Positions 2,892 through 64,000 of a DNA stretch of 64,000 nt are shown here, piece after piece; within the stretch, counting starts at the first letter, position 1, and every line of letters starts with the position of its first letter. Origin of the DNA: Aurantibacter aestuarii. Its GTDB lineage: Bacteria > Bacteroidota > Bacteroidia > Flavobacteriales > Flavobacteriaceae. Under the pieces are notes generated by a model, which was not told where the DNA came from, did no database searches, and was given only the letters and a program-made list of their open reading frames with translations. The translations under genes were made by a program, and so were the position numbers. The stretch spans positions 7,501-71,500 of the forward strand of contig NZ_PXOQ01000009.1 of the NCBI RefSeq assembly GCF_003008425.1. Reading direction: 5' to 3'.

Positions 2892-5800
2892 ATGAAAAGA
2901 GTTTTACTATTAATCTTTTTATTATTTTCTTCATTTATTTATTCACAAGCTCCATTTGTTACAACTTGGGAAATTGAAAATAGTGTAGATAGAACTATTA
3001 TAATTCCAATAACTGGGTCTGGATATAATTTTCAAGTAGATTATGGAGATGGTTATACAGAAAGTTATGTTTCAGGTAACATTCCGGTACATACATATTC
3101 CCAACCTGGAGTTTATACTGTAGAAATTTCTGGCGATTTTCCTAGAATAAACTTTCAAAATTCAACACAACAAAATAGAGAAAAGTTAAAAACTATAGAG
3201 CAATGGGGAGATATAGTTTGGAATAGCTTTGAATATGCTTTTTTTAAATGTAATAATTTAATTATTAATAGTTTGGATGTTCCTAACCTTTCCAATGTTA
3301 ATAATATGAGACATATGTTTGATGGTTGCGGTTCTCTAAACACATCTTTAAATAATTGGGATGTAAGTAATGTTCAAAATACGAGCTATATGTTCGCTAA
3401 TACTATAAATTTTAACCAGCCTCTTAGTAATTGGGATGTGTCTAGTGTAACAGATATGTCTGGTATGTTTTATAATGCCTTAAATTTTAATCAGTCTTTG
3501 AATAATTGGGATGTATCAAATGTTATAAATATGTCAGAAATGTTTTCAAATGCAGAAAACTTTAATAGCAATATTTCGAGTTGGAATACAGGTAATGTGA
3601 CTGATATGAATCAAATGTTTACTTACGCTAAACACTTTAATTCAAATATTTCAAATTGGAATGTATCTAATGTAACAAATATGTATGGATTGTTTTCGAA
3701 TGCAGAATCATTTAATCAAAACTTAAATAATTGGCAGGTTGGAAATGTTATAAATATGAGTTATTTATTTAATCAATCCATCCAATTTAATGGTTTGTTA
3801 GATAATTGGAATGTTTCAAATGTAACAAACATGTCTAATTTGTTCAAAGGAGCAATTAACTTTAATCAACCAATAAACAATTGGGATGTTTCAAATGTTA
3901 TCGATATGACTGAGATGTTTCGTGGAGCGGAAAACTTTAATCAACCGCTTAATAATTGGAATACTTCTAGTGTTACTTCTATGTATGGTATCTTTAGATT
4001 TTGTCTTAGTTTTAATCAAGATATTAATTCATGGTTTACATCAAATGTAACAAACATGTCTTATATGTTTGATGGATGTATTAGTTTTAATAAAGATATA
4101 TCTGTGTTAGATTTTTCAAATGTTACAAACATGTCTTATATGTTTAATGGTTGTAGCAGTTTTGATCAAGATTTTCATTTATGGAATTTTAACGATACTG
4201 TAACCCTTAACTATTTTATTGCAAACACAAATTTATCTATCTTAAATTATGAAAGTTTTCTAGCTACATTAAATAATTCTTCTATTAATCCTCAAACACT
4301 TTTTAATACAAACTTAAAGTATTGTGAAGAATCTGAAAGAGACAGTTTAATAGTAAATGGTTGGACTGTCAATGAAGATATACATGTGTTTGATTGTAAT
4401 AGTACTTTAATTCCTGGAGCATTTGTAACTTCATGGATTGTTGATAATACTAATGGATTAACCATAGAAATACCGACAGATTTTAATGAAACATATAACT
4501 ACACTATAGATTTTGGAGATGGAACCACACAAAATAACGTAGCTACTAATATTTCCCATACTTATTCACAAGCTGGACAATATAATATTTCTATTACTGG
4601 AATTTTTCCACACTTAAATTTTGCATATACTACAAATTCAACTACAAATAATAAAATTAGAAGTGTAGAACAATGGGGCTCTATAAATTGGACATCTATG
4701 GTTAATGCTTTTTTTAATTGTAAGAATATACAAATTAATGCAAGTGATATTCCAAACCTTACAAATGTATCCTCATTGGAAGGTATGTTTTTTGGAGCAA
4801 CTCATATGAATTCTAATATTAATAATTGGGATGTTTCAACAATATCTAATTTTTCAAAAATATTTGTTAATGCAAAAAACTTTAATCAACCTTTAGATAG
4901 TTGGAATATGTCTAATGCAATAGATTTGTCGTCTTTTTTTGCTAGTGCAGAAGCTTTTAATCAACCTTTAAATAATTGGGATGTTTCTAATGTGCAAAAT
5001 ATGTCTGGAACATTTAATTCAGCAATCGCTTTTAATCAACCCTTAGATTCTTGGAATGTTTCAAGTGTTTCAAATATGGAAAGTATGTTTACGGGTTGTT
5101 TATCTTTTAATCAGGATATCAATAACTGGGATGTTTCAAATGTAACAAATATGGCTAGTATGTTTGCTAAAGTTTATATAAATCTATCCTATCCAGACGA
5201 TATGATATTTAACCAACCTTTAAATGATTGGGATGTTTCAAACGTAACAAATATGAATAGTATGTTTGAAGAATCTATAAATTTTAATCAACCTTTAAAT
5301 AATTGGAATGTTGGTAATGTTACAGTTATGAAAGATATGTTTAAGAAAGCATCATTATTTAATCAATCTTTAGCTACTTGGAATGTTTCAAATGTTACAA
5401 ATATGGAAAGTATGTTTGAAGAAGCAGAAGCTTTTAATCAACCCTTAAATAGTTGGGATGTTTCTAACGTAGCTTCTATGAGTTATATGTTTGCTAATGC
5501 TATTTTATTTAATGAACCTATAAATAACTGGAATACTTCATCAGTTCAGAATTTATCCTATGCTTTTTTTGGAGCAGAATCTTTTAATCAACCATTAGAT
5601 AATTGGAATGTATCAAACGTAACAGATATGCAATTTATGTTTCTAGATGCGATTAGTTTTAATGAGAATATTTCAACTTGGGATACTTCTAATGTAACAT
5701 CTATAGAAGGTATGTTTAAAAATGCTCAAGCATTTAATCAACCTCTAAATGCTTGGAACCTAAGTAACGTTATAGACATGACCTTATTATTTGATGATGC

Positions 5801-7856
5801 TATAATGTTTAATCAGCCTTTAGATAATTGGCAATTTCCAAATGTACAAACTTTAACAGGTGTATTTAGGAATGCAAAAGCTTTTAATCAAGATATAAAT
5901 AGTTGGGACACTAGTAATGTACTAAGCATTAATAATTTATTTAATGGAGCAGAATCTTTTAATATGCCCTTAAATAATTGGAACGTGTCAACTGTTTTTA
6001 CTATGCAAAATACTTTTCGTAATGCTAAACAGTTTAATCAAGATATTTCAAATTGGAATACTTCAAGTGTAACCACATTTGCTGGGATGTTTAACAAGGC
6101 AGAAAATTTCAATCAGCCACTAAATTCTTGGAATATTTCTGGAGCAACTAGTTTAAGCAGCATGTTTTCTGAAGCCACTAGTTTTAATCAACCCCTTAAT
6201 AACTGGAACACATCTGGAATACAAGTGTTTAGTAATATGTTTTATTTTGCAAGTGAGTTTAATCAAGCACTAAACACATGGGATTTTTCATCAGCAAACT
6301 CAGGAAACGGAATTTTTTACAACTTTTTAAGTTATTCAAATTTGAACACTTTAAATTATGATTTAATTTTAAATAGATTAGCTAATTTTACATTTCAATC
6401 TTCTTCTATATTTTTTGGTGCACATGGCTTAAAATATTGTAACGAAATAGATCGTAATTATCTAATAAATGATTTAAGCTTTTCTATGAATGGCGATAGT
6501 TTAAGTAGCCAATGTAACCAAATAAATATAATTATAAATTTTGATGAAGATTTGTCTGGTTGTAATCCAACTACAGATATAGAATTACAGAATATTCCCA
6601 TTACCATAACAACGCCACAAAATAGTAGTATATTCAGTTCTAATAACTCAACAATAAATTTAAATATCAATTCATATGATTTTAGTTTAAACAATTTACC
6701 AAATAATATACAAAGTAATCCATTAACGCAAAATGTGACCTTTACAAATTCTGGAAATACTCAAAACATTGAATTTTGTTTATCGAGTTCTTCTCTTTTC
6801 AATGATGTAGCTGTGACTATTGTTCCATTAAATGCGGCTAGACCTGGATTAGTATCCCAGTATAAAATTATAACAGAAAATTTAGGTAGCCAGACGTTAC
6901 AGAATTTAGATATTACTTTCACATATAATCAAACGCAACAAACGTTTATAAACAGTACAATTCCTACTACAAGTCAGACTTTAAATGAGTTAGTTTACCA
7001 AATTTCTTCTTTAGGTCCTTTAGAAATTTCAGAAAACACCCTTAAATTTCAAAATGCAGTGCCTCCTATAATGGATTTAGGTCAAACATTACTGCTTGAG
7101 GTTGAAACAGTTATGGTAAACGATATCAATACATCTAATAATATATTTACTCTAAATCAACCCGTTGTAAATTCTTACGATCCTAATGATAAATTAGTTT
7201 TACAAGGTGACTCGATTTATTATAATGAAATTGATCAATATCTTACATATACTATTAGATTTCAAAATACAGGAAATGCTAATGCATTAAATGTATCTAT
7301 ATTAGACCAACTACCATTTAATAGTCAATTTAGTACATTTAAGGTTTTAAGTTCTAGTCATGCATATACTGTAAAAAATGTGTTTTTTAATTTTCTAGAA
7401 TTTAATTTTGATACTATCAACCTCGTACCACAATCAGTAGATGAAGAACTTAGTAAGGGCTTTATAGTGTATCAAGTTAAACCATTGCAAACTTTAAATG
7501 TTGGAGATTTTATTAGTGGTAGTTCTGCTCAAATATTTTTTGATTTTAATGCTCCAATTACTACAAATGCAGTTCAGACCGAAATTATTGAATCTGTGCT
7601 AAGCACTGTAGACTTTTCAGAAATTGCCTTTAATCTTTATCCAAATCCCACCACTAAAGAGAAAGGGGTTACATTAATTAATTTCAACAATCATAAAATT
7701 AATCTTGTAAAGATATATGATTTAAGAGGTATTCTGTTAGTTACTAAAACAGACGATTTTGATTTTATAGACATGTCAAATTTGAATTCTGGAATTTATT
7801 TAATAGAATTAAGCACTGATTCAAAAAAAGTTATTAAAAAAGTAATAGTTAACTAA
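2892..7856 (+). CDS. Giant BspA-like (DUF285) repeat surface protein with PKD-like domains and T9SS sorting tail
   Basis: The protein has 1654 residues. A signal peptide (about 1-19) precedes two parallel blocks. Each block opens with a PKD-like domain (FQVDYGDGYTESYV near 45; YTIDFGDGTTQNNV near 535) and continues as a ladder of about 25-residue units of the form FNQPLNNWDVSNVTNMSYMF. I count about 12 units in the first block and 20 in the second. A DUF7619-like domain (SYDPNDKLVLQGD, about 1425-1560) and a type A T9SS sorting domain (FNLYPNPTT to the end) follow. BspA/DUF285 repeats form leucine-rich-repeat-like solenoids used in adhesion or protein binding. The gene stands alone between divergent and convergent neighbours and ends at a strong terminator. 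The ligand is unknown. Confidence 0.9.
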   Translation: MKRVLLLIFLLFSSFIYSQAPFVTTWEIENSVDRTIIIPITGSGYNFQVDYGDGYTESYVSGNIPVHTYSQPGVYTVEISGDFPRINFQNSTQQNREKLKTIEQWGDIVWNSFEYAFFKCNNLIINSLDVPNLSNVNNMRHMFDGCGSLNTSLNNWDVSNVQNTSYMFANTINFNQPLSNWDVSSVTDMSGMFYNALNFNQSLNNWDVSNVINMSEMFSNAENFNSNISSWNTGNVTDMNQMFTYAKHFNSNISNWNVSNVTNMYGLFSNAESFNQNLNNWQVGNVINMSYLFNQSIQFNGLLDNWNVSNVTNMSNLFKGAINFNQPINNWDVSNVIDMTEMFRGAENFNQPLNNWNTSSVTSMYGIFRFCLSFNQDINSWFTSNVTNMSYMFDGCISFNKDISVLDFSNVTNMSYMFNGCSSFDQDFHLWNFNDTVTLNYFIANTNLSILNYESFLATLNNSSINPQTLFNTNLKYCEESERDSLIVNGWTVNEDIHVFDCNSTLIPGAFVTSWIVDNTNGLTIEIPTDFNETYNYTIDFGDGTTQNNVATNISHTYSQAGQYNISITGIFPHLNFAYTTNSTTNNKIRSVEQWGSINWTSMVNAFFNCKNIQINASDIPNLTNVSSLEGMFFGATHMNSNINNWDVSTISNFSKIFVNAKNFNQPLDSWNMSNAIDLSSFFASAEAFNQPLNNWDVSNVQNMSGTFNSAIAFNQPLDSWNVSSVSNMESMFTGCLSFNQDINNWDVSNVTNMASMFAKVYINLSYPDDMIFNQPLNDWDVSNVTNMNSMFEESINFNQPLNNWNVGNVTVMKDMFKKASLFNQSLATWNVSNVTNMESMFEEAEAFNQPLNSWDVSNVASMSYMFANAILFNEPINNWNTSSVQNLSYAFFGAESFNQPLDNWNVSNVTDMQFMFLDAISFNENISTWDTSNVTSIEGMFKNAQAFNQPLNAWNLSNVIDMTLLFDDAIMFNQPLDNWQFPNVQTLTGVFRNAKAFNQDINSWDTSNVLSINNLFNGAESFNMPLNNWNVSTVFTMQNTFRNAKQFNQDISNWNTSSVTTFAGMFNKAENFNQPLNSWNISGATSLSSMFSEATSFNQPLNNWNTSGIQVFSNMFYFASEFNQALNTWDFSSANSGNGIFYNFLSYSNLNTLNYDLILNRLANFTFQSSSIFFGAHGLKYCNEIDRNYLINDLSFSMNGDSLSSQCNQINIIINFDEDLSGCNPTTDIELQNIPITITTPQNSSIFSSNNSTINLNINSYDFSLNNLPNNIQSNPLTQNVTFTNSGNTQNIEFCLSSSSLFNDVAVTIVPLNAARPGLVSQYKIITENLGSQTLQNLDITFTYNQTQQTFINSTIPTTSQTLNELVYQISSLGPLEISENTLKFQNAVPPIMDLGQTLLLEVETVMVNDINTSNNIFTLNQPVVNSYDPNDKLVLQGDSIYYNEIDQYLTYTIRFQNTGNANALNVSILDQLPFNSQFSTFKVLSSSHAYTVKNVFFNFLEFNFDTINLVPQSVDEELSKGFIVYQVKPLQTLNVGDFISGSSAQIFFDFNAPITTNAVQTEIIESVLSTVDFSEIAFNLYPNPTTKEKGVTLINFNNHKINLVKIYDLRGILLVTKTDDFDFIDMSNLNSGIYLIELSTDSKKVIKKVIVN

Positions 7857-7861
7857 AAACC

Positions 7862-7891
7862 AAAAAAGCACCCAAAATGGGTGCTTTTTTT
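7862..7891. terminator. Bidirectional intrinsic terminator between the BspA-like gene and icd
   Basis: A 12-bp perfect stem (AAAAAAGCACCC / GGGTGCTTTTTT) has a 5-base loop, with T-runs on either strand. It lies between two convergent stop codons (7856 and 7910) and should serve both genes. Confidence 0.9.
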
Positions 7892-7909
7892 ACTTTATAA
7901 GTTTTAAGC

Positions 7910-10240
<2,331 letters not shown>

Positions 10241-44157: not shown

Positions 44158-45777
44158 TTAACGTATTCTTTCAATATTAAAGCAAGTCCTTGTATTGTTA
44201 TTTAATACACTAGTACCAGCACCAGTTCCAGTGGTTATAACTTCTATATGTACTATATCTGTGGCAGATAATTGAGCGATTGCAGAAATTTGCCTCGTAA
44301 TTCTTCCGCTACCACTATGATTTTGTTCAACCCTTTGATAGATAGAACCATTGATATAAATTACAAGAGTATATGTTGTGGTATTAGTTTGTGCATCTGT
44401 ACTAAATTGTGCACTAAAATTATAAAACCCGTCAGATCCAGCTACAAATTGATTGTTTACAGTGTCAAATTCACTATTTAAATCAAAATCTGTTGTGTCG
44501 AATAATAATTTTTGAGAACCAGAAACTAAAGTTTGAGCACTTGTCATTCTTGCTCTTACTAAAGATAGGGTTGAAGTGTTTGCATTTTGCCAACTTACAG
44601 CACCAGAGCCGTCTGTTACTAAAATTTGATTTGCAGTACCATCGGTTGTAGGAAACGCATAACCTGATGTTGCAGGGTTACCAATTTGAAATTCACTATT
44701 TGTTCTTAAAATATTGTTATCAAATTCTCCGTAGATTAATGCATTGTCAGCATCATTTGCAGTATTTTCTATATAAAGTTTATTACTTCCACTCTCATCA
44801 TAACCAGCCTGATTTCCTATAAAAACATTTCCAACCTTATCTTCTAATGTACCAGTATTACCAGTCAAATCATAATCTCCAGCACCAGCATCATATCCTA
44901 TATATACATTTCTTGAGGAATTTCGATCTGAATTTCCAGCACCGCTACCAACAAAGACATTAAAGTTATTGTCAATATCCACTGCGTTACCAAAATCTAG
45001 GACTCTTCCAGCATAATCTCCAATAGCTACATTTCCCTCTCCAAAAATATTTGATCTAAGTGTTTGATTTCCTAAACCAATATTATTTCTACCATCAGTA
45101 TTATTTGATAATGAAAATGCTCCTACAGCAATGTTAGAGTCACCACTTATATTTGAGGTTAAAGCCAAGCCACCAATTGCCGTGTTATTTCTGCCAGAGA
45201 TATTAGAACTTAATGTATTAACTCCTAAGGCAGTGTTTCTAAGCCCATCTGTGTTAGACATTCCTGAATTATAACCAATAAATGTATTTATATTATCTGT
45301 TAAATCATCATTAGCTCCAGCGCCTTCACCAATAAAAACTGATCTACCAGTATTTAGTGTAGAAATTGTACCATTAGTTTCAACTCTAACTTTTTCAATA
45401 TCATTAGTTCTTATGGTTAAAGCTTGATTATCTGTAGTTCCTAAAAAATTTGTAGTACTGTTTGTACCAGTATTTCCATTTAAAAGCCAGCCTCTTGCAG
45501 CAGAATTTAACCGTCTCCAACTTATACCGTCGTTATAATATACACCTTGGCTAACGTTTCCAGAGGTTGTTGTATTATAAACAAACATACCCGCTACGTG
45601 TGCTGTTAATGGAGCTGCTGAGGTTGAATCGGTTAAAATTACTCTTGGAAGTAGTAACCCTTGGTCTGTTGTAGTTAAATCTAAAAGAGCATCTGGGTTT
45701 GGATTTGTAGTTCCAATCCCAACTTGTGCTAAAGAAATCGATGTAGTAAGTAAAAATAAAAATAAAATTGTTCTCAT
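44158..45777 (-). CDS. 'VGIGT' surface protein with hep_Hag-like repeats and C1q-like C-terminal domain
   Basis: The 539-residue protein has a signal peptide (MRTILFLFLLTTSISLAQ), then the conserved QVGIGTTNPNPDALLDLTTT module. A long repeat region has 14-16-residue units such as GRNNTAIGGLALTSNISG, like YadA-head (hep_Hag) repeats. The linker GTANQILVTDGSGAVSWQ is followed by a C-terminal domain (about 402-539) that resembles a C1q/TNF jelly roll (GFYNFSAQFSTD, YTLVIYINGSIYQRV). It is probably a trimeric, secreted fibre-like protein. No T9SS tail is seen, so the export and anchoring route is unclear. The 233-bp upstream spacer suggests its own promoter. Confidence 0.78.
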   Translation of the reverse strand: MRTILFLFLLTTSISLAQVGIGTTNPNPDALLDLTTTDQGLLLPRVILTDSTSAAPLTAHVAGMFVYNTTTSGNVSQGVYYNDGISWRRLNSAARGWLLNGNTGTNSTTNFLGTTDNQALTIRTNDIEKVRVETNGTISTLNTGRSVFIGEGAGANDDLTDNINTFIGYNSGMSNTDGLRNTALGVNTLSSNISGRNNTAIGGLALTSNISGDSNIAVGAFSLSNNTDGRNNIGLGNQTLRSNIFGEGNVAIGDYAGRVLDFGNAVDIDNNFNVFVGSGAGNSDRNSSRNVYIGYDAGAGDYDLTGNTGTLEDKVGNVFIGNQAGYDESGSNKLYIENTANDADNALIYGEFDNNILRTNSEFQIGNPATSGYAFPTTDGTANQILVTDGSGAVSWQNANTSTLSLVRARMTSAQTLVSGSQKLLFDTTDFDLNSEFDTVNNQFVAGSDGFYNFSAQFSTDAQTNTTTYTLVIYINGSIYQRVEQNHSGSGRITRQISAIAQLSATDIVHIEVITTGTGAGTSVLNNNTRTCFNIERIR

Positions 45778-45945
45778 GGTCTAAATGGTTACTTAATTGT
45801 TTGTCTGAAAGTAAACATAGACCACTATAAACATGGTTTGTTAATTGTCAATAAAGGTTAATCTATTGTTTTTTAGGATAAACGGTATATTTTTTCAGAT
45901 AAAGAACAGCTAATGATGTACAATTCTGATTCATTATGAATTAAT

Positions 45946-45979
45946 GTTTGTATGAGGTTCTAGTTGTATTAGTACAAAC
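45946..45979. repeat. Inverted repeat in the spacer between surface-protein genes
   Basis: GTTTGTA (45946-45952) and TACAAAC (45973-45979) are perfect inverted arms, flanked by AATTA/TAATT. The loop contains TAGTTGTATTAGTA, reminiscent of the TAGTAGTAT tandem repeat before the related gene at 61960. No U-run follows, so an operator is more likely than a terminator. Confidence 0.4.
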
Positions 45980-46010
45980 TAATTCTTCCACTTTGTAAAT
46001 TAGATTAAAA

Positions 46011-47405
46011 CTATTTTTCTTTATTATTTTTTTTAATAGTTGCAATTTCCCTTTCAATTTCTTCAATCATTTTTTGTTGTTCTTGAACAGCTTTAACTAA
46101 TGGTACAACAAATTCGGCATAAGTTAAAGCATATAGCGGATCATTTTCGGTTGGCGTTTTAACACCACTAAAATTATAATTAGAATCTTTTGCTGCAGCA
46201 TCAACCTCTTGAGCAATAAATCCAGAAATTTTTATTTTTTCAATGTCGTATTTTGAATCATAATCTGGCGATTCATTTACTCCTAAAAGCTTATTTTGAG
46301 TACTAATATCTAAATTATATGTTACAGGTCTTAATTTCATTATGAAATCTAGACCAGCCACATTTTCCTTTATATTTTTTTTAATTCTTCGGTCTGAATA
46401 GGTTGTAAAATTAACTTGACCGCTAATTCTTGTAATTGATGTATTACCAAGATTAACTCTATTATCTCCACCTGCATCTGCATTATAACCAATAACAGTT
46501 GTGTTGTTGTGACTTCCATTATCATACGCTTGATTACCTATAGCGGTATTGAAACTTCCATTAGTATTATTCTGGAGTGCAGAACTACCGATAGCGACGT
46601 TATTTGTGCCGCCCCTATTTTCTCTACCAGCCCAATAACCAACACCAACATTATTTGTACCTGTTGTGGTATATCTAAAAGATTGATTACCAATTGCTAC
46701 ATTAAAATTATTAGAACTACCGTTTTCTAAAGTTAAGTCTCCTATTGCAATATTATCGTTACCAGTTGTATTATTTCTTAAACTATTTAATCCAAAAGAT
46801 ATATTTCTAGAACCCGAAACATTGTTTTCAAAAGCATTTGTTCCAATTGCAGTATTTAATTCCCCTGTTGTATTTGCATTACCAGCATTATTACCGATAA
46901 AAATATTTTCATTATTACTTAAATCATCATTTATTCCTGCACCATCACCAATAAAAATTGAATTTCCAGTATTTAGTGTAGCAATTGTACCATTGGTTTC
47001 TAATCTTAATTTAGGTATATTATTTACTCTAAAAGTTAGTGCCTGGTTATCTAGTGTGCCCAAAAAATCGTTAGAACTATTGGTTCCTGCATTACCATCT
47101 AAATTCCAACCAGTACCAGCAGCCACACTTGTAGCCACTCTTTGCCAAGCGGTACCATTATTATAATAAAAACCAGGAGAAACATCACCAATGCTAGCTA
47201 AATTATAGACTAGCATACCAGAAACATGTGCAGTTAAAGGAGCAGCACTAGTTGTATTTGATAAATTTAATCTTGGTAATAATAAACCTTTATCTGTTGT
47301 AGCTATTTCTAACGCAGCATTAATATTAGGGTTTGTGGTTCCAATACCAACTTGTGCTAAACTAAAAAAAGGGAGAATAATTAAAATATATATAATGTTT
47401 TTCAT
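46011..47405 (-). CDS. 'VGIGT' surface protein with S74 autoproteolytic chaperone domain
   Basis: The 464-residue protein has a signal peptide, QVGIGTTNPNINAALEIATT, and hep_Hag-like repeats (NTAIGTNAFENNVSGSRNIS). A C-terminal intramolecular chaperone follows, of the peptidase S74 type known from phage tail fibres (TTYSDRRIKKNIKENV from 334, cleavage-site serine at 337; SGFIAQEVDAAAKDS). It ends in a coiled coil (QEQQKMIEEIEREIATIKK). S74 domains trimerise the fibre and then cut themselves off. The gene lies 4 bp downstream of the paralog at 47410 and is cotranscribed with it. Confidence 0.82.
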   Translation of the reverse strand: MKNIIYILIILPFFSLAQVGIGTTNPNINAALEIATTDKGLLLPRLNLSNTTSAAPLTAHVSGMLVYNLASIGDVSPGFYYNNGTAWQRVATSVAAGTGWNLDGNAGTNSSNDFLGTLDNQALTFRVNNIPKLRLETNGTIATLNTGNSIFIGDGAGINDDLSNNENIFIGNNAGNANTTGELNTAIGTNAFENNVSGSRNISFGLNSLRNNTTGNDNIAIGDLTLENGSSNNFNVAIGNQSFRYTTTGTNNVGVGYWAGRENRGGTNNVAIGSSALQNNTNGSFNTAIGNQAYDNGSHNNTTVIGYNADAGGDNRVNLGNTSITRISGQVNFTTYSDRRIKKNIKENVAGLDFIMKLRPVTYNLDISTQNKLLGVNESPDYDSKYDIEKIKISGFIAQEVDAAAKDSNYNFSGVKTPTENDPLYALTYAEFVVPLVKAVQEQQKMIEEIEREIATIKKNNKEK

Positions 47406-47409
47406 AATG

Positions 47410-48783
47410 CTATTTTTTATTTTTTAGTAATTGAAGTTCTTTCTTTATTTCTTTAAGTCTTTCTTGTTGTTCTTTTATTGTTTTTACTAAGGGTACAACA
47501 AATTGTGAATAGGTAACCATATATAATGCTTGATCTTTTTCAGGTTTTGACAAACCGTTAAAATTATAATGACTTTTTATTGCGGCAGCTTCAATTTCTT
47601 GAGCTATAAAACCTGAAAATTCAATGTTTTCAATATCATATTTAGAAGGGTAAATTGGACTTTCTTTTACTTTTAAATATTCATTTTGTTTATCAATATC
47701 AAAATTATAAGTTACTGGTCTTAGTTGAGTAATAAATTCTGTTCCAACAACATCTTCTTTAATGTTAGTCTTTATTCTTTTGTCTGAATAGGTTGTAAAA
47801 TTTACTTGGCCACTAATTTGAACGATTGAAGTATTCCCTAAATGCAAAATATTGTCTGCATCTACTACAGTATTATAACCTATAGCATTAGCATTTCTGT
47901 AACTTCCATTAAAATATGCATTAGCTCCAACTGCTGTACTAAAATCTTCACTTGTAAAAGAAAACATGCTGTTATAACCAACACTAGTATTATCATTACC
48001 AGAGACATTTGTGTTTTGGGCAAAAACACCTAAAGAAAAATTTCTTGCACCATTTACAAGACTTCTTGAAGCATAATTTCCAACAGCCACATTTCTATCT
48101 GCGTTAGCATTTTCTAAAGATTTATAACCAACAGCAATACTATGGTCTCTACCTGTATTACTTTCCATAGCTCTGGCACCTATAACATTATTATTGGCAC
48201 CACTAGTATTGCTTGAATATGTATTTGCACCAACCGCTGTACTTCTATCGCCAGCACCATTATTAATAGCTGTATTTGAGCCAATAAAAACGTTTACATT
48301 ACCGTTTCCTGAAGATCCGACATTTTCTCCTATATGAACTGAATTTGGTCTAAAAACAGATAGTGTACCGTTTGTTTCTAAAGTATGATTTAGTCTATTG
48401 TCTGTTCTAAAGCTAAAGGCTTGATTATCTGTAGTACCAATAAAATTTGTATTTGCATTAGTACCTGTATTACCTGTAATAAACCAGTCGCCACCAACTG
48501 AATTTAAAATTCTTTGCCAAGTAGAACCATTGTTGTAATAAAAACCAGGACTAACATCATTAATTGTAGTTGTATTATAAACTATAATTCCTTCTACATG
48601 AGCATTCATTGGTGCAAAAGATGTTGTAGAAGACAAACTTAGACTATTTATAAGTAAACCACTATCTAAAGATTCTATATCTAGCATGGCATTTGCATTT
48701 GGTGTTATCGTGCCAATACCTACTTGAGCAAACGAAATCGATGTAGTTACATAAAAAAAGATTAAAATAATTTGTTTTAGCAT
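47410..48783 (-). CDS. 'VGIGT' surface protein with S74 chaperone domain (paralog)
   Basis: The 457-residue protein has the same plan as the gene at 46011: signal peptide, QVGIGTITPNANAMLDIESL, hep_Hag-like repeats (GANNNVIGARAMESNTG) and the S74 domain (TTYSDKRIKTNIKEDV, serine 333; SGFIAQEIEAAA), with a C-terminal coiled coil (EQQERLKEIKKELQLLKN). The two S74 domains are close in sequence while the repeat regions differ, consistent with tandem duplication and diversification of the exposed shaft. It is first in the operon. Confidence 0.82.
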   Translation of the reverse strand: MLKQIILIFFYVTTSISFAQVGIGTITPNANAMLDIESLDSGLLINSLSLSSTTSFAPMNAHVEGIIVYNTTTINDVSPGFYYNNGSTWQRILNSVGGDWFITGNTGTNANTNFIGTTDNQAFSFRTDNRLNHTLETNGTLSVFRPNSVHIGENVGSSGNGNVNVFIGSNTAINNGAGDRSTAVGANTYSSNTSGANNNVIGARAMESNTGRDHSIAVGYKSLENANADRNVAVGNYASRSLVNGARNFSLGVFAQNTNVSGNDNTSVGYNSMFSFTSEDFSTAVGANAYFNGSYRNANAIGYNTVVDADNILHLGNTSIVQISGQVNFTTYSDKRIKTNIKEDVVGTEFITQLRPVTYNFDIDKQNEYLKVKESPIYPSKYDIENIEFSGFIAQEIEAAAIKSHYNFNGLSKPEKDQALYMVTYSQFVVPLVKTIKEQQERLKEIKKELQLLKNKK

Positions 48784-56739: not shown

Positions 56740-57906
56740 TTATCCTTTTTTATTTCTTGATCCTGAACTTCTACTTGAAGATCTTGTATTTGTAGATCTG
56801 CTTTGTGTTCTTGTAGATCTTGATTTCACCGATGTATTTCTTGAAGGTGAACTTATAGTTTTAGAATTTCTACTTGTTCTAGATTGACTATTACTAACTC
56901 TTGGAGTACTTGTTCTCGTAGAACTTTTTCTTGGAGAAGATACTCTTGAACTTGTGTTTCCTCTTTTAATAGTAGAAGAATTTGATGTTCGTGTTCTTGA
57001 GCCTGAACGATTCCCGTTGTTAGATGTATTGTTTCCAATAGTCGATCTAGTACGTGTTCGGGTCGTTGTATTATTTGTAGAAGTTGATGCTCTTGAATTT
57101 CTCGTTGCATTCGATGTTCTAGGAGTTCTAGAAGTTGCGTTTGAACGTGTTCTGGTTGAGTTATTAGTTGCCACAGAGTTTCTTCTATAGTTAGAGTAGT
57201 CGGCTCTTTTTAAACCTCTACCATTAGTTGCTAAACTTCTGTTTCTAGAAATTGTATGTCCGCGTCTCGTTGCAACTGCAGTGGTTCTTCTGTAGTTATT
57301 AGCAAAAGGTCTATGATAAGCATATCTTACTGGAACATAGTTTACACGATAAGGTCTGTTGTAAACCACACAATAATTTCTAGGTGGAATTCTGTAATAT
57401 CTATGCCAAGGTCTATGGATATAAACTCTATTATAAACATTAATAAATCCTGTACAGTGAGAGAACACATTGTAATTGTTATAATGTATATATAAACCTC
57501 CAACATTGCGAATAAAACCTCTGTTGTTATAATTAATAAAAATTGATCCAATCTGATTTACTCGACCATAATAATCATAAAAAACAGGCGTGTTTTCTAT
57601 TTGAATTATAGCTCCAAATTCATCATACTGTACATATGGATTATAATCGTAACCAGAATTAAAACTAAAGCTTCCTGCATTAGTATTAACCGAAATTGAA
57701 ATATTTGGATTCTGATTAGGAATTACAAAATCAAATTGTCCATCTGGAAAAACTGAAAATTCAATATTATTTTCTACAAATATGAAAGAATTTCCATAGC
57801 CTAAACCATATGATGTATTTATAGCTGAAGTTTCCGCAGGCGTTGTAGCGTTTACATTTACTAATCCAATTAGTAAACCTGTAAGTAACATGATTAATTT
57901 TTTCAT
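56740..57906 (-). CDS. Secreted protein with paralogous N-domain and long basic S/T/R/N-rich tail
   Basis: The 388-residue protein has a signal peptide (MKKLIMLLTGLLIGLVNVNA). A beta-rich N-domain (about 40-160) has IEFSVFPDGQFDFV and YGRVNQIGSIFINYN. A middle part is rich in aromatic residues, R and P (HRPWHRYYRIPPRNYCVVYN). The tail (about 215-388) is almost only S, T, R and N (SNATSRTPRTSNATRNSR). The tail should be disordered and very basic, and may bind nucleic acid or anionic surface polymers. It shares the N-domain with the gene at 58034. No named family is recognised. An unusual high density of CDS-like open frames on other strands is a by-product of its repetitive codons. Confidence 0.8.
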   Translation of the reverse strand: MKKLIMLLTGLLIGLVNVNATTPAETSAINTSYGLGYGNSFIFVENNIEFSVFPDGQFDFVIPNQNPNISISVNTNAGSFSFNSGYDYNPYVQYDEFGAIIQIENTPVFYDYYGRVNQIGSIFINYNNRGFIRNVGGLYIHYNNYNVFSHCTGFINVYNRVYIHRPWHRYYRIPPRNYCVVYNRPYRVNYVPVRYAYHRPFANNYRRTTAVATRRGHTISRNRSLATNGRGLKRADYSNYRRNSVATNNSTRTRSNATSRTPRTSNATRNSRASTSTNNTTTRTRTRSTIGNNTSNNGNRSGSRTRTSNSSTIKRGNTSSRVSSPRKSSTRTSTPRVSNSQSRTSRNSKTISSPSRNTSVKSRSTRTQSRSTNTRSSSRSSGSRNKKG

Positions 57907-58033: not shown

Positions 58034-58714
58034 TTAAGATTTAAGGCGTTTAAGCTTCTTAACCTTTTTAGTTTTATTTCCTTTTTTATAATAATAGTAA
58101 TCATCATTAGGATTGTTTCCATTATTGTAAGGTTGTGAAAAATGATTTACGCCACAATTAATTGTACTACAAACTCCGCAATGTCTATTATATCTGTTTA
58201 CGAAACCAGAGGTATGCGAGATTTGTTGCGTATTTCTATGATAATGAATACGTAAGCCACCAATTTGAGAAACTAAACCAAATCTGTTATATCTTAAATA
58301 TACAGAGCCAACTCTTTTTAATTGACCGTAATAGTTGTAATTTAAAAATACATTTCCTATTCGTCTTACTCGGCCCTCACTATCATGTGTAATAATAACA
58401 CCACTAGAAAAGTTGTTTCCTTGTATATAATTTACCCTAGGTGCTCCGTAAGTTACATTAGTGTTAAACGATACTCTAGTTGCTGAGTTGCGTCTATAGT
58501 ATACATCTCCAGGAGTCGTATTCAATTCGGTATTAAAATCAAAACTTCCGTCTGGAAATACTAAAAATTCTACACCACGCTCTATAAAAGAGATAGGTTG
58601 ATCAAAATAAAAATTAGATCTTAAATCTTCACCTTGCGATGCAGATTTTTGTTCTGCTGCAACAGGTGCTATTCCAAATAACAAACCTGTTAATAAAAGT
58701 ACTATTGTTTTCAT
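58034..58714 (-). CDS. Secreted protein, paralog of the 56740 product without the long tail
   Basis: The 226-residue protein has a signal peptide (MKTIVLLLTGLLFGIAPVAA) and the same N-domain (VEFLVFPDGSFDFNTE, YYGQLKRVGSVYLRYN, GLVSQIGGLRIHYH). A Cys/His/Asn-rich stretch (RHCGVCSTINCGVNHF) follows, and the protein ends in a short lysine tail (KKGNKTKKVKKLKRLKS). Repeats of the form 'G.v..IG...i.YN..G.' suggest a small beta solenoid. No known domain is recognised. It is followed by its own terminator, so it is a separate transcript from its paralog. Confidence 0.8.
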   Translation of the reverse strand: MKTIVLLLTGLLFGIAPVAAEQKSASQGEDLRSNFYFDQPISFIERGVEFLVFPDGSFDFNTELNTTPGDVYYRRNSATRVSFNTNVTYGAPRVNYIQGNNFSSGVIITHDSEGRVRRIGNVFLNYNYYGQLKRVGSVYLRYNRFGLVSQIGGLRIHYHRNTQQISHTSGFVNRYNRHCGVCSTINCGVNHFSQPYNNGNNPNDDYYYYKKGNKTKKVKKLKRLKS

Positions 58715-59945: not shown

Positions 59946-61823
59946 TTAATTTAAATCTCTTAAATATTCATCAATTGATTTGTTCTTTGGGATATTTAAT
60001 TTTTTCCTAATGGTAAATCTATAATTGTTAACAGATTGTATGCTTATTCCCATTTGATTTGAAATTGTTTTAGAACTCATTTTTAGTAAAGCATAAGTAG
60101 CGACCTTAATTTCTTTAGGAGTAAGGTTGGGGTATTTTTCTTTTAATTTTGAAATAAAAGACTGTTCTGTATTCTTTATATTACTGTTATATATAATTTT
60201 TTCTCTATTTATATCTAGATTTTCTTCAGCGTAGAATTGTAAATTTTGTAATTGAGATTTTACTTCAGTATTATCAGACTGAGCTTTAATTTTTTTTATT
60301 TCATTCGTAAAATACTCCAGCATTCTATTTCTTTCACTTATATGAATAGCATATTCTGTAATCTCAGTGTTTTTTACTGCCATTTCACTACTTAATTTCT
60401 CTTCTTTTAAAGTAATAACTTTTTTTTCAGCAATAAGAGCGAACTCTTTAGCTTTATTTAATTTGCGCTGTCTGTAAATAAATGTTACTAGACCGCAAGC
60501 GAGTAAAAAAAGCAAGGTGTTTCTATAATTACTTGCTTTTTTTGCTTCGTTAAGTAAATTAAGTTCTTGTTCTTTAGTTTTTAAATCTTGTTGATATTCT
60601 GATATGTCAAATTGTAATTTTAAACGTTCTATCTTCTGTTTATTTTGACTGTTCCTTATACTATCTTTAAATTGAGTATAGTTTTTATATGCCTTATAGG
60701 CATTATTAACATCTCCAATTTTATCATAAAAATTGGCTAACAGCAGTTTGTTCTTTTCTGCAATTTCTATATCATCAATATGTTTTATACTATTGGCTTG
60801 TTTTAAATAATCAATAGCTTTATAATGGTCTCCTTTAAAACCTTCAATCTTAGCCTTAATATTTAATATTGAAGGCTTAGTACTAGAATTGTTAATTTCA
60901 TTAAAGAGATTTTCAGATTTAAGTATATAATCTTCAGCTCCTGAAATATTACCAAGTTCAGCAATAACTTCCGAATAATACATATATATTGAAGCCATCA
61001 TATATGTGTTTGATATTTTATTGAAAATGCTTATCCCATTTTCGAAAGTAACCTTTGCTTCCCTAAAGTTTTTTAAATTTTTTTGTAAGTAGCCTATATT
61101 ATGGTAGCAAACAACCTGAGCTAAATATCTATTATTTTTCTTAGTTTCGGTTAGTGCCTTTTCTAGCGACTCTAATGCTTTTTCATAATCTCCACTATTG
61201 TTGTAAACGGCAGATAAACCATTATAAATGTCAAATTTATATTCCTCAAGATTTAATGTGGTAGAAAGTTTGTAGGCTTCATTATAATAATTTAATGCGG
61301 CCTCTAAGTTGTTAATCTGTCCATGAACAGCAGCTAAGCCTAGTAGTCCAGAAATTTTATCTTTATTTTTTAAGTAGGGTAGCGCTTCTGTAAAATTTTG
61401 TAATGCACTTTTATTATTATCTTGAATTTGATATATATTACCTAGAATGAGTTGTGTATTCGCGACGTCCTCAACTAAATTATTATTTCGATAAATTTTT
61501 ATTGCTTTTAAAGCAAATTTTTCTGTATTAATATAGTCTGAATTTAAATAATATGTTTTTGCTTTTAATGTATAATATTTAGCATGAACTAAACTGTCAT
61601 TATTTTTATCTGCAATATATTTTAATTTTTCAGCATAAAAGAATGTGCTGTCACTTAAATTTCGATTCTGGTAATAGTTAATTATCTCTGTAATTAATTT
61701 AACTCTTTCACTAGAATTTGAAGTTTTTTTTAGCTTAAGCTTTATGTTTCTTAAATCTATTTGTCCATTAACACTCAAACAAATGATGAATATAAAGCTA
61801 AATGAAATATAATATTTTGACAT
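59946..61823 (-). CDS. TPR-containing membrane regulator with LuxR-type DNA-binding domain
   Basis: The 625-residue protein has a signal peptide or N-terminal anchor (FSFIFIICLSVNG). Tetratricopeptide repeats occupy about 40-390 (YEKALESLEKALTETKK). A membrane helix (TLLFLLACGLVTFIY, about 434-448) precedes a cytoplasmic coiled coil and a C-terminal LuxR/GerE helix-turn-helix (LTPKEIKVATYALLKMSSKT, SIQSVNNYRFTIRKKLN). Periplasmic TPRs would sense a protein or peptide, and the HTH would act on DNA from the membrane. It is divergent from the partial surface-protein gene at 61960, a likely target by context. Confidence 0.9.
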   Translation of the reverse strand: MSKYYISFSFIFIICLSVNGQIDLRNIKLKLKKTSNSSERVKLITEIINYYQNRNLSDSTFFYAEKLKYIADKNNDSLVHAKYYTLKAKTYYLNSDYINTEKFALKAIKIYRNNNLVEDVANTQLILGNIYQIQDNNKSALQNFTEALPYLKNKDKISGLLGLAAVHGQINNLEAALNYYNEAYKLSTTLNLEEYKFDIYNGLSAVYNNSGDYEKALESLEKALTETKKNNRYLAQVVCYHNIGYLQKNLKNFREAKVTFENGISIFNKISNTYMMASIYMYYSEVIAELGNISGAEDYILKSENLFNEINNSSTKPSILNIKAKIEGFKGDHYKAIDYLKQANSIKHIDDIEIAEKNKLLLANFYDKIGDVNNAYKAYKNYTQFKDSIRNSQNKQKIERLKLQFDISEYQQDLKTKEQELNLLNEAKKASNYRNTLLFLLACGLVTFIYRQRKLNKAKEFALIAEKKVITLKEEKLSSEMAVKNTEITEYAIHISERNRMLEYFTNEIKKIKAQSDNTEVKSQLQNLQFYAEENLDINREKIIYNSNIKNTEQSFISKLKEKYPNLTPKEIKVATYALLKMSSKTISNQMGISIQSVNNYRFTIRKKLNIPKNKSIDEYLRDLN

Positions 61824-61878
61824 AAAAATTGAATAGAAAATAATTTGCTGTTGCTAATATACACTAATATAATGTTAC

Positions 61879-61900
61879 TATAGTAGTATTATAGTAGTAT
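61879..61900. repeat. 11-bp tandem repeat in the divergent promoter region
   Basis: TATAGTAGTAT occurs twice in direct, head-to-tail copies (61879-61889, 61890-61900). It lies 55 bp upstream of the LuxR gene start and 59 bp upstream of the surface-protein ATG. The 11-bp period puts both copies on the same DNA face, as expected for an operator bound by a dimer such as a LuxR-type protein. Confidence 0.5.
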
Positions 61901-61959
61901 CTTAAATTGACAATTTTGACTTGTAGGATTAAGTTTGTTTCAATTAATACCATTATATT

Positions 61960-64000
61960 ATGAAATATCTTTTTTCAAGTTTTTTAATACTACTTACAAC
62001 CACATTAATTGCTCAAGTAGGTATTGGAACAGTTAATCCAAATGCAACAATAGATATCGTTGCATCTAATCAAGCAACTCCAACAAATAATGATGGTATT
62101 TTAATACCTAGAATAGATGTTTTTCCATCTACTAATCCAACACTTGCACAAGACTCCATGATTGTTTATTTAACCACAACAGATGGTACAGATGCTCCTG
62201 GGTTTTATTATTGGAATAATGCCACTACATCATGGTTACCATTTGGAGGTGCTTCAACAACAGGTTGGGATTTAACAGGTAATGCAGGTACTGTAAATGG
62301 AACTAATTTTTTAGGAACAACAGATAATCAAAATTTAGATATTAGAACAAATAATATTGTTAGAGCAAGATTTACAAGCCAAGGACAATTAGAGTTTTTG
62401 AATAATGGAAGCTCGGTTTTTATTGGTGAAGGAGCTGGTGCAGCAGACGATTTGACAACCAATAGAAATGTTTTTATTGGTTATGAAGCAGGTAATGATG
62501 TTACTTCTGGATTTAATAATATTGCTTTAGGGCTTGGATCATTTGATAGAGCTACTACTGGTAGTAGAAATATAGCAATTGGTGTAGGTTCTTTGGATGC
62601 AGATTTAGATCCTGAAAGTACTGTTGCTATAGGAAGTGGTACTTTGGGTGGTGCTAGTGGGAATGTAACAAATACTGTTGCAATTGGAGCTAGCGCGTTA
62701 TCTAATTCTACAGACGCTGTAGATAATTTAGCTTTAGGTTATAGAGCAGGAGCAAATGTAGATGGACCAGATAATGTTTTTTTAGGGGCTAATGCTGATT
62801 GGTTAAATGCTAATTCTGGAGCAACACAAAATGTAATTATAGGTTCTGGAGCTGGACAAGCAGGTTCTGGTGGAGGAATTGCGTATAATGGTCGAATTTT
62901 AATAGGTTATCAAGCAGGAAGAGATAATGGAATAAATAATTCTTTATTTATTGAAAACTCTTCTAGTGTAACGCCATTATTATATGGTGAGTTTGATAAT
63001 AATATTTTAAGAATTGGTGGACAATTACAAATTGGGTCTAGTGATGATACTACTGCAGGTGTAGTATACGGTTTTCCTACAGTAGATGGTACATCTGGAC
63101 AGGCATTAGTAACGGATGGTTTAGGTAATGTAACTTGGCAAACTATAGCAGGTGGAGGATTAGATACACAAGATTTATCTATTAATAATGTAACAGCCGA
63201 TTTATCTTTAGTTGATGGAGGAACGGTTGAAATAAAAACTATTGCAGATTCTGATGATGATACAAAAATTCAAACAGAAGAAGGAATAGACGACGACACG
63301 ATACGATTTGACATTGCTGGAACGGAACATTTTACTATGTTAACAAATGGTAAATTAGAAGTTTTAAATACTGGAAACTCTATCTATATTGGAGATAATG
63401 CAGGGCAAGCAGATTTAAACACAGCAGATAAAGAAAATGTAATGATTGGGACTAATGCAGGACAAAATATAACCACAAGTGCAACTTCCGCTTTTCATGG
63501 GCGTTACAATGTTGGTATAGGATTTAATGCATTGCAAGACCAAACTAGAGGTCATAGAAATACCGCTGTAGGTCATGGAGCTGCTGAAAGTTTAACTACA
63601 GGTACTTTTAATACGGCTATTGGTCACGATGCTTTAAAAAATGCAACTTTTGTAGAATATAATACTATCATGGGAAATGATGCTGCTGAAAACATCAATG
63701 GAAATGGCAATACAGCAATAGGTTATAGAGCATTAATGGGATTTAGTGGAGGAACTGGTGCAAACAATACTGCTATGGGAGATGGCGTTGGTTCAAGAAT
63801 TAGAAATGGTTCAAATAACGTTTGGATAGGTCAAGATACCGAAGAGTTTAATGAGAACGGAAATAATAACACCATTATAGGTACTGATGCAGGTGCATCT
63901 ATAGGTTCTTCTAGATCTTTAAGTGGTCGTGTGTTAATTGGTTATAATGCGGGTAGAAGTACAGGTGGAGTTGATAATACATTGTATATTGAAAACTCAA
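61960..64000 (+). CDS. 'VGIGT' surface protein, N-terminal part (cut by window edge)
   Basis: An open frame starts at ATG 61960 and runs off the right edge after 680 codons. It has a signal peptide (MKYLFSSFLILLTTTLIAQ), the VGIGTVNPNATIDIVASNQ module and hep_Hag-like repeats (NRNVFIGYEAGNDVTSG, NNIALGLGSFDRATTG). A GTSGQALVTDGLGNVTWQ linker near residue 385 is followed by a second repeat block with the same IFIGD/AGQ pattern. So this gene carries two shaft modules, where the genes at 44158-48783 have one. The C-terminal head is beyond the window. It is probably a large trimeric fibre-like surface protein. Confidence 0.8.
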   Translation, partial: MKYLFSSFLILLTTTLIAQVGIGTVNPNATIDIVASNQATPTNNDGILIPRIDVFPSTNPTLAQDSMIVYLTTTDGTDAPGFYYWNNATTSWLPFGGASTTGWDLTGNAGTVNGTNFLGTTDNQNLDIRTNNIVRARFTSQGQLEFLNNGSSVFIGEGAGAADDLTTNRNVFIGYEAGNDVTSGFNNIALGLGSFDRATTGSRNIAIGVGSLDADLDPESTVAIGSGTLGGASGNVTNTVAIGASALSNSTDAVDNLALGYRAGANVDGPDNVFLGANADWLNANSGATQNVIIGSGAGQAGSGGGIAYNGRILIGYQAGRDNGINNSLFIENSSSVTPLLYGEFDNNILRIGGQLQIGSSDDTTAGVVYGFPTVDGTSGQALVTDGLGNVTWQTIAGGGLDTQDLSINNVTADLSLVDGGTVEIKTIADSDDDTKIQTEEGIDDDTIRFDIAGTEHFTMLTNGKLEVLNTGNSIYIGDNAGQADLNTADKENVMIGTNAGQNITTSATSAFHGRYNVGIGFNALQDQTRGHRNTAVGHGAAESLTTGTFNTAIGHDALKNATFVEYNTIMGNDAAENINGNGNTAIGYRALMGFSGGTGANNTAMGDGVGSRIRNGSNNVWIGQDTEEFNENGNNNTIIGTDAGASIGSSRSLSGRVLIGYNAGRSTGGVDNTLYIENS

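Follow-up and report, generated by a model that had tools for sequence, protein, structure and literature searches.

In the window (the whole stretch of 64,000 nucleotides of Aurantibacter aestuarii DNA that was analysed), four genes flanked by housekeeping genes encode proteins that begin alike and end in different heads, two of them a self-cutting chaperone domain of phage fibres, and the question is what such proteins build and where the cell puts it. We favor, at a probability of roughly 0.65, a reading in which these and their paralogues, 23 proteins in all, are Sec-exported trimeric fibres that have the build of phage fibres and are used as cell-envelope proteins by means of an N-terminal module of the Bacteroidota (the N-module). 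The genes and their parts lie as follows.

44158-45777, minus strand: fibre gene with a C1q end, 539 aa (open reading frame; structure model)
44218-44541, minus strand: C1q domain, aa 413-520 (PF00386, 29.3 bits; TM about 0.84 to solved C1q domains)
44899-45339, minus strand: shaft of the C1q protein, about aa 147-293, 17-residue repeats (repeat period and model)
46011-47405, minus strand: fibre gene S74a, 464 aa (open reading frame; PF13884, 39.7 bits; structure model)
46017-46121, minus strand: C-terminal helix of S74a, aa 429-463 (structure model; a coiled coil for trimerisation by analogy with MyRF, PMC8326128)
46188-46397, minus strand: S74 domain of S74a, aa 337-406 (predicted dyad Ser337 and Lys342; match to MyRF ICA)
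46446-46964, minus strand: shaft of S74a, about aa 148-320 (period 17; pLDDT mostly 80-94; YadA-like in the model by Foldseek)
47016-47354, minus strand: N-module of S74a, about aa 18-130 (common to the 23 proteins of the genome)
47355-47405, minus strand: signal peptide of S74a, aa 1-17, followed by QVGIGT (hydrophobic stretch and SLA|Q site, read from the sequence)
47410-48783, minus strand: fibre gene S74b, 457 aa, with signal peptide, QVGIGT N-module, shaft of 17-residue repeats and S74 end (open reading frame; PF13884, 37.2 bits; 4 bp from the next gene)
47584-47787, minus strand: S74 domain of S74b, aa 333-400 (predicted cleavage dyad Ser333 and Lys338)
59946-61823, minus strand: regulator with TPR, transmembrane and LuxR parts, divergent from the long fibre gene (Pfam TPR and GerE; gap 136 bp)
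61824-61959, no strand: intergenic region between the divergent regulator and long fibre gene, 136 bp
61960-64000, plus strand: long fibre gene with a coiled-coil type end, 837 aa in full (open reading frame; runs past the window and ends near 64473)

An earlier, sequence-only reading had placed three neighbours at 44158-48783 and a fourth at 61960, all sharing a QVGIGT..PN start. The three neighbours are minus-strand open reading frames at exactly these coordinates, and in all four proteins that start follows a signal peptide. Over the N-terminal ~125 aa, the C1q protein shares 48-59% identity with the other three window proteins. S74b and S74a, at least, are likely co-transcribed, since only 4 bp lie between them; the C1q gene comes 233 bp further on, and a promoter and terminator scan of the three-gene cluster gave no signal exceeding shuffled sequence. 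The full 837-aa form of the fourth protein was read from the adjoining locus (L008:1960-4473), and a Pfam search gives it no known end domain; its tail is of coiled-coil type ('YPDYVF..GHLPNVKS..NLEKIEENFIYI'). The window also encodes other secreted proteins, several of which begin with Gln once mature, and we therefore dropped the mature-start Gln as a special feature of the fibres. Two neighbours (56740-57906 and 58034-58714, minus strand) share a 'FSVFPDGQFDF'-like start and differ in their C-terminal parts, and a 1,654-aa protein (2892-7856, plus strand) has repeated 'WDVSNVTNM' units and a T9SS tail (PF18962 at G000:C6:15135-15350).

The ends of the three neighbouring proteins were correctly named as C1q, S74 and S74, with all three Pfam matches above their cut-offs. 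Peptidase_S74 (PF13884) lies at the C-terminus of S74a and S74b (cut-off 22 bits), and six of the seven S74 ends of the genome pass the same cut-off; the C1q end exceeds the PF00386 cut-off of 23.7 bits, and the model of that protein matches C1q trimers in Foldseek (E 6e-8, TMt 0.84). The putative cleavage motifs are S337-DRRI-K342 in S74a and S333-DKRI-K338 in S74b. Ser and Lys stand five residues apart in 6/7 S74 ends of the genome and in about 35/39 of the wider set (our script gave 36, but one of them, L051:5980, appears to fit the pattern by chance). In MyRF, S587 and K592 are both required for cleavage, as are S911 and K916 in endoNF, and cleavage needs the trimer (PMC8326128); conservation of the Ser-Lys pair has been described (PMC3742443). 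Self-cleavage of the S74 members is therefore likely, because they keep the pair that MyRF and endoNF need. S74-like ends that are related to these but have no Ser-Lys motif (L125:7497-9248, L114:6001-8091) suggest that a probably non-cleaving branch exists.

The shafts have a sequence period of 17 residues in the window proteins. AlphaFold2 models of S74a (464 aa; mean pLDDT 76.7, 29 sequences) and of the C1q protein (mean pLDDT 73.9) are monomers built from 22-29 sequences and of modest confidence. S74a has a confidently predicted shaft with one short strand per 17 residues, in step with the sequence period, and strands are spaced alike in the C1q protein's shaft. The N-module is less well predicted and could be assigned no fold, and the linker after it has low confidence. 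Among the best PDB matches of the S74a model in Foldseek were YadA-type heads (CbpF, probability 0.94-0.97; YadA 1p9h, 0.99; BoaA), MyRF ICA (7dc3, probability 1.00, TMt 0.62-0.64) and endosialidase chaperones; E-values were weak (0.003 or worse), though probabilities were high, and it is our own reading that the YadA matches belong to the shaft and the MyRF match to the C-terminus, as the Foldseek table gives no query positions. Searching the PDB by sequence with S74a returned no match, and the YadA and hep_Hag Pfam models gave none in the window proteins at E<=1. The description of the shafts as hep_Hag-like thus holds for the fold, by Foldseek, and fails for the sequence family, with no Pfam match and a 17-residue repeat. 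Models and Foldseek do bear out the idea of a fibre-like shaft carrying heads of kinds that are trimeric in solved relatives.

Phages share the C-terminal part of these proteins. When 50,697 phage records were searched by tblastn, 45 phages matched the S74 protein over about aa 187-460 at about 30% identity, the first 186 aa being uncovered in all 30 of the phage matches listed; viral models matched phage S74 fibres with E down to about 1e-16. Since the phage matches listed cover aa 187-460 and leave out the N-terminal part, the protein joins a Bacteroidota N-part to a phage-shared C-part. A search of IMG/VR confirmed no relative of the N-module, and no Pfam or NCBIfam model covers the region. 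We found no paper on the N-module family in a literature search whose coverage excluded most subscription journals.

A profile built from the four window N-modules and run against the genome (2.9 Mb, 99.97% complete) matched 26 stretches. These fall within 23 proteins, whose genes occupy 17 places on three contigs; the best matches, at E about 1e-64, are far past chance. All 23 have a hydrophobic, signal-peptide-like start and then QVGIGT or a close variant, and they appear to carry a Sec-type signal peptide that would take the chain to the periplasm. We grouped their C-termini ourselves into about 11 classes: seven S74 ends, three of a beta-rich type, two of a 'VFIQLEGDCNGVYV' type, two KIEEN coiled coils, two more types that occur as pairs, one C1q, one collar-like and two others, and one further end whose cluster weakly matches H-type lectin. 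Among 154 complete proteins that begin with the module (fetched Bacteroidota loci and our own genome), the ends form 43 clusters, a number that overcounts folds, as distant beta-sandwich ends split at E<1e-4; S74 is the largest, with 39. The genome-wide tally that the sequence-only reading proposed therefore agrees with its claim of one N-terminal module with many ends. The module was found in 17/40 genomes at E<=1e-6 and in 44/198 sampled Bacteroidota genomes, our own counted in each case; it is absent from the one congener examined, one genome has up to about 40 matches, and the distribution across the phylum is patchy. The outside sample was partly picked by the peptide pattern [SL][LFI]AQVGIGT and is unfit for measuring conservation of that start.

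Judged by identity, the window proteins are modular. Between the C1q protein and S74a, identity is 52-70% within aa 1-160 and falls to 12-23% in the head; S74a and S74b agree best in the S74 domain (70-75%), less in the N-module (50-62%) and least in the shaft (22-48%). Like N-modules stand beside unlike heads in the window cluster and in two L080 genes (N-modules 76% identical, S74 versus another end). On a tree of the N-module (127 model columns), head labels change at least 55 times, a count that tree error inflates, against 80-92 times when shuffled; by this measure heads are partly inherited and often different. The first 400 nt of neighbouring window N-modules are 63-64% identical, and this divergence, with the non-random head labels, argues against a recent or active cassette switch. 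The pattern reads as old duplication and domain exchange among paralogues, so that the proposed cassette system stands as old modular exchange and falls as active swapping. Runs of three or four adjoining module genes occur in other Bacteroidota (L071:1794-8013, L054:4760-9389, L055:5992-11180, L100:4861-7870), and some such neighbours have N-modules 77-89% identical.

Together, the likenesses to trimeric relatives suggest trimers and head-led folding. In the mechanism that we propose, the C-terminal head would gather three chains and initiate folding of the shaft after Sec export, as trimeric relatives suggest; two of the window proteins would use an S74 chaperone as this head, the third a C1q jelly roll and the fourth a coiled-coil end. 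The 17-residue repeats would form a YadA-like beta-roll shaft, a fold taken from the monomer models. A folded S74 trimer would then cut before Ser337 or Ser333 by its Ser-Lys dyad, shed the chaperone and expose the shaft tip, and uncut heads such as C1q would remain as the tip of the fibre and be its likely binding ends. The N-module is the sole part common to all members, which is what suggests that it stands where a phage fibre has its virion-attachment end and holds the fibre at the envelope, probably at the outer membrane. We infer that the fibres are exported across the outer membrane, by a crossing route that is unexplained, and this unexplained export is the interesting part of the family.

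An unlikely alternative is that the proteins are periplasmic or secreted soluble trimers, their heads binding various soluble ligands or envelope components. It would account for a Sec signal that comes with no known outer-membrane export signal or anchor that we could find, but sits poorly with rod-like shafts of proteins up to 1,008 aa, with phage-fibre and adhesin-type folds, and with a patchy, expanded and diverse family, which better fits surface exposure. Less probable still is export by the type IX secretion system (T9SS), directed by a signal, C-terminal or internal, that current models fail to recognise. The T9SS is the usual route in the phylum, and the genome has a large cargo set (46 matches to the tail model PF18962); described T9SS signals, however, are C-terminal, whereas the fibres have about 11 unrelated C-termini, that of S74 members would be cut off, and none of the 23 members matched a T9SS tail model, as the earlier reading had noted of the proteins it saw. 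A type Vc autotransporter is ruled out, as YadA_anchor (PF03895) was not found in the genome at E<=0.01 or in the fibre proteins. Among recurrent neighbours of the fibre genes, no conserved export gene was found. Hardly credible, finally, is that the proteins are parts of a phage-derived particle, from a prophage or an extracellular contractile injection system (eCIS): phage tail spikes match the shaft plus S74 end, and eCIS operons carry S74 as a shell domain (PMC8213781), but this origin is contradicted by the housekeeping neighbours in a window with no phage genes, by the contractile sheath (PF04984) not being found in the genome and by signal peptides on all members, which cytoplasm-assembled particle proteins do not carry, and the N-module, in 23 copies at 17 places, was not found in phage records.

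The reading as Sec-exported envelope fibres thus keeps the S74 device on secreted bacterial proteins, with the dyad, the Sec signal peptides and the housekeeping surroundings all in place. A cytoplasmic location and prophage encoding, either of which would have refuted the sequence-only reading, are contradicted by the signal peptides and the neighbours, respectively. Its observation was right and understated, and its interpretation is right in outline and partly supported.

Regulators of two types, TPR-LuxR and LytTR, are recurrent neighbours of fibre genes; other recurrent groups look as if they come from orthologous loci that have kept their gene order, or from common gene families. The TPR-LuxR neighbour has Pfam TPR and GerE domains, and we read its sequence as starting like a signal peptide and containing a single membrane helix. 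Three full-length copies occur in the genome; two match the window copy at 28% identity, and each of the three stands in divergent orientation to a long fibre gene (837, 1008 and 1000 aa; gaps 136, 152 and 138 bp). The pairs outside the window are L118:8145-9926 with 4966-7992 and L116:1649-3454 with 3593-6595. Given a rough figure of about 2,600 genes, the chance of a 3/3 pairing is of order 1e-7, a figure computed after the pattern was noticed. The close relatives fetched from other genomes are often at fibre loci (L184, L185, L051, L055, L056, L103); the 26 more distant TPR-LuxR loci that were checked had no module within 1.5 kb, and many of these adjoin other secreted or lipoprotein-like genes. 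TPR-LuxR proteins are likely local regulators of surface genes, some of them serving fibres. The three regulator-fibre intergenic regions, searched for a common operator, had AT-rich similarity only. In three genomes, a TPR protein and a LytTR response regulator lie near fibre genes (L124:8388-11326, L080:9191-11958, L092:215-2977); the TPR protein at L124, in our own genome, has histidine-kinase domains.

More tentatively, and as a wider proposal that we hold to be possible rather than probable, trimeric surface fibres across the Bacteroidota, with shafts of phage-fibre type and self-cutting chaperones, may share an outer-membrane route that is borne by the N-module and needs neither T9SS nor type V secretion; the route would also hold them at that membrane, and the long members would be under a dedicated TPR-LuxR regulator that spans the membrane and detects the fibre in the periplasm. 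If the N-module is a surface anchor, it would imply that a major phylum exports proteins across the outer membrane in a way yet to be described, and would provide a natural N-terminal handle for many kinds of trimeric head. The fibres would be a clear case of phage-fibre parts adopted by ordinary cell-envelope biology, and dedicated regulators make their expression directly testable.

Several known systems resemble the fibres in part. The T9SS adhesins of Flavobacteriia, such as SprB, come from related bacteria and are likewise large, exported and likely adhesive, whereas the fibres are without the T9SS C-terminal domain. Type Vc adhesins (YadA, BoaA, CbpF) have the YadA-type head fold that is predicted for the shaft, but the fibres have a 17-residue repeat, no YadA Pfam match and no C-terminal YadA_anchor. 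The C1q/TNF superfamily has the C1q fold of the head of the 44158 protein, which is mounted on a beta-roll shaft instead of a collagen stem. The S74/ICA end with the same Ser-Lys spacing is found in MyRF and MrfA, which differ in being eukaryotic membrane transcription factors that put the cut to a different use. Phage tail spikes and fibres, among them SPO1-like tail spikes, the L-shaped fibre of T5 and the endosialidase endoNF, have a repeat shaft followed by S74 with dyad and helix; in the proteins described here, which are chromosomal and lie outside any phage, a Sec signal peptide and a Bacteroidota N-module would replace the virion-attachment part.
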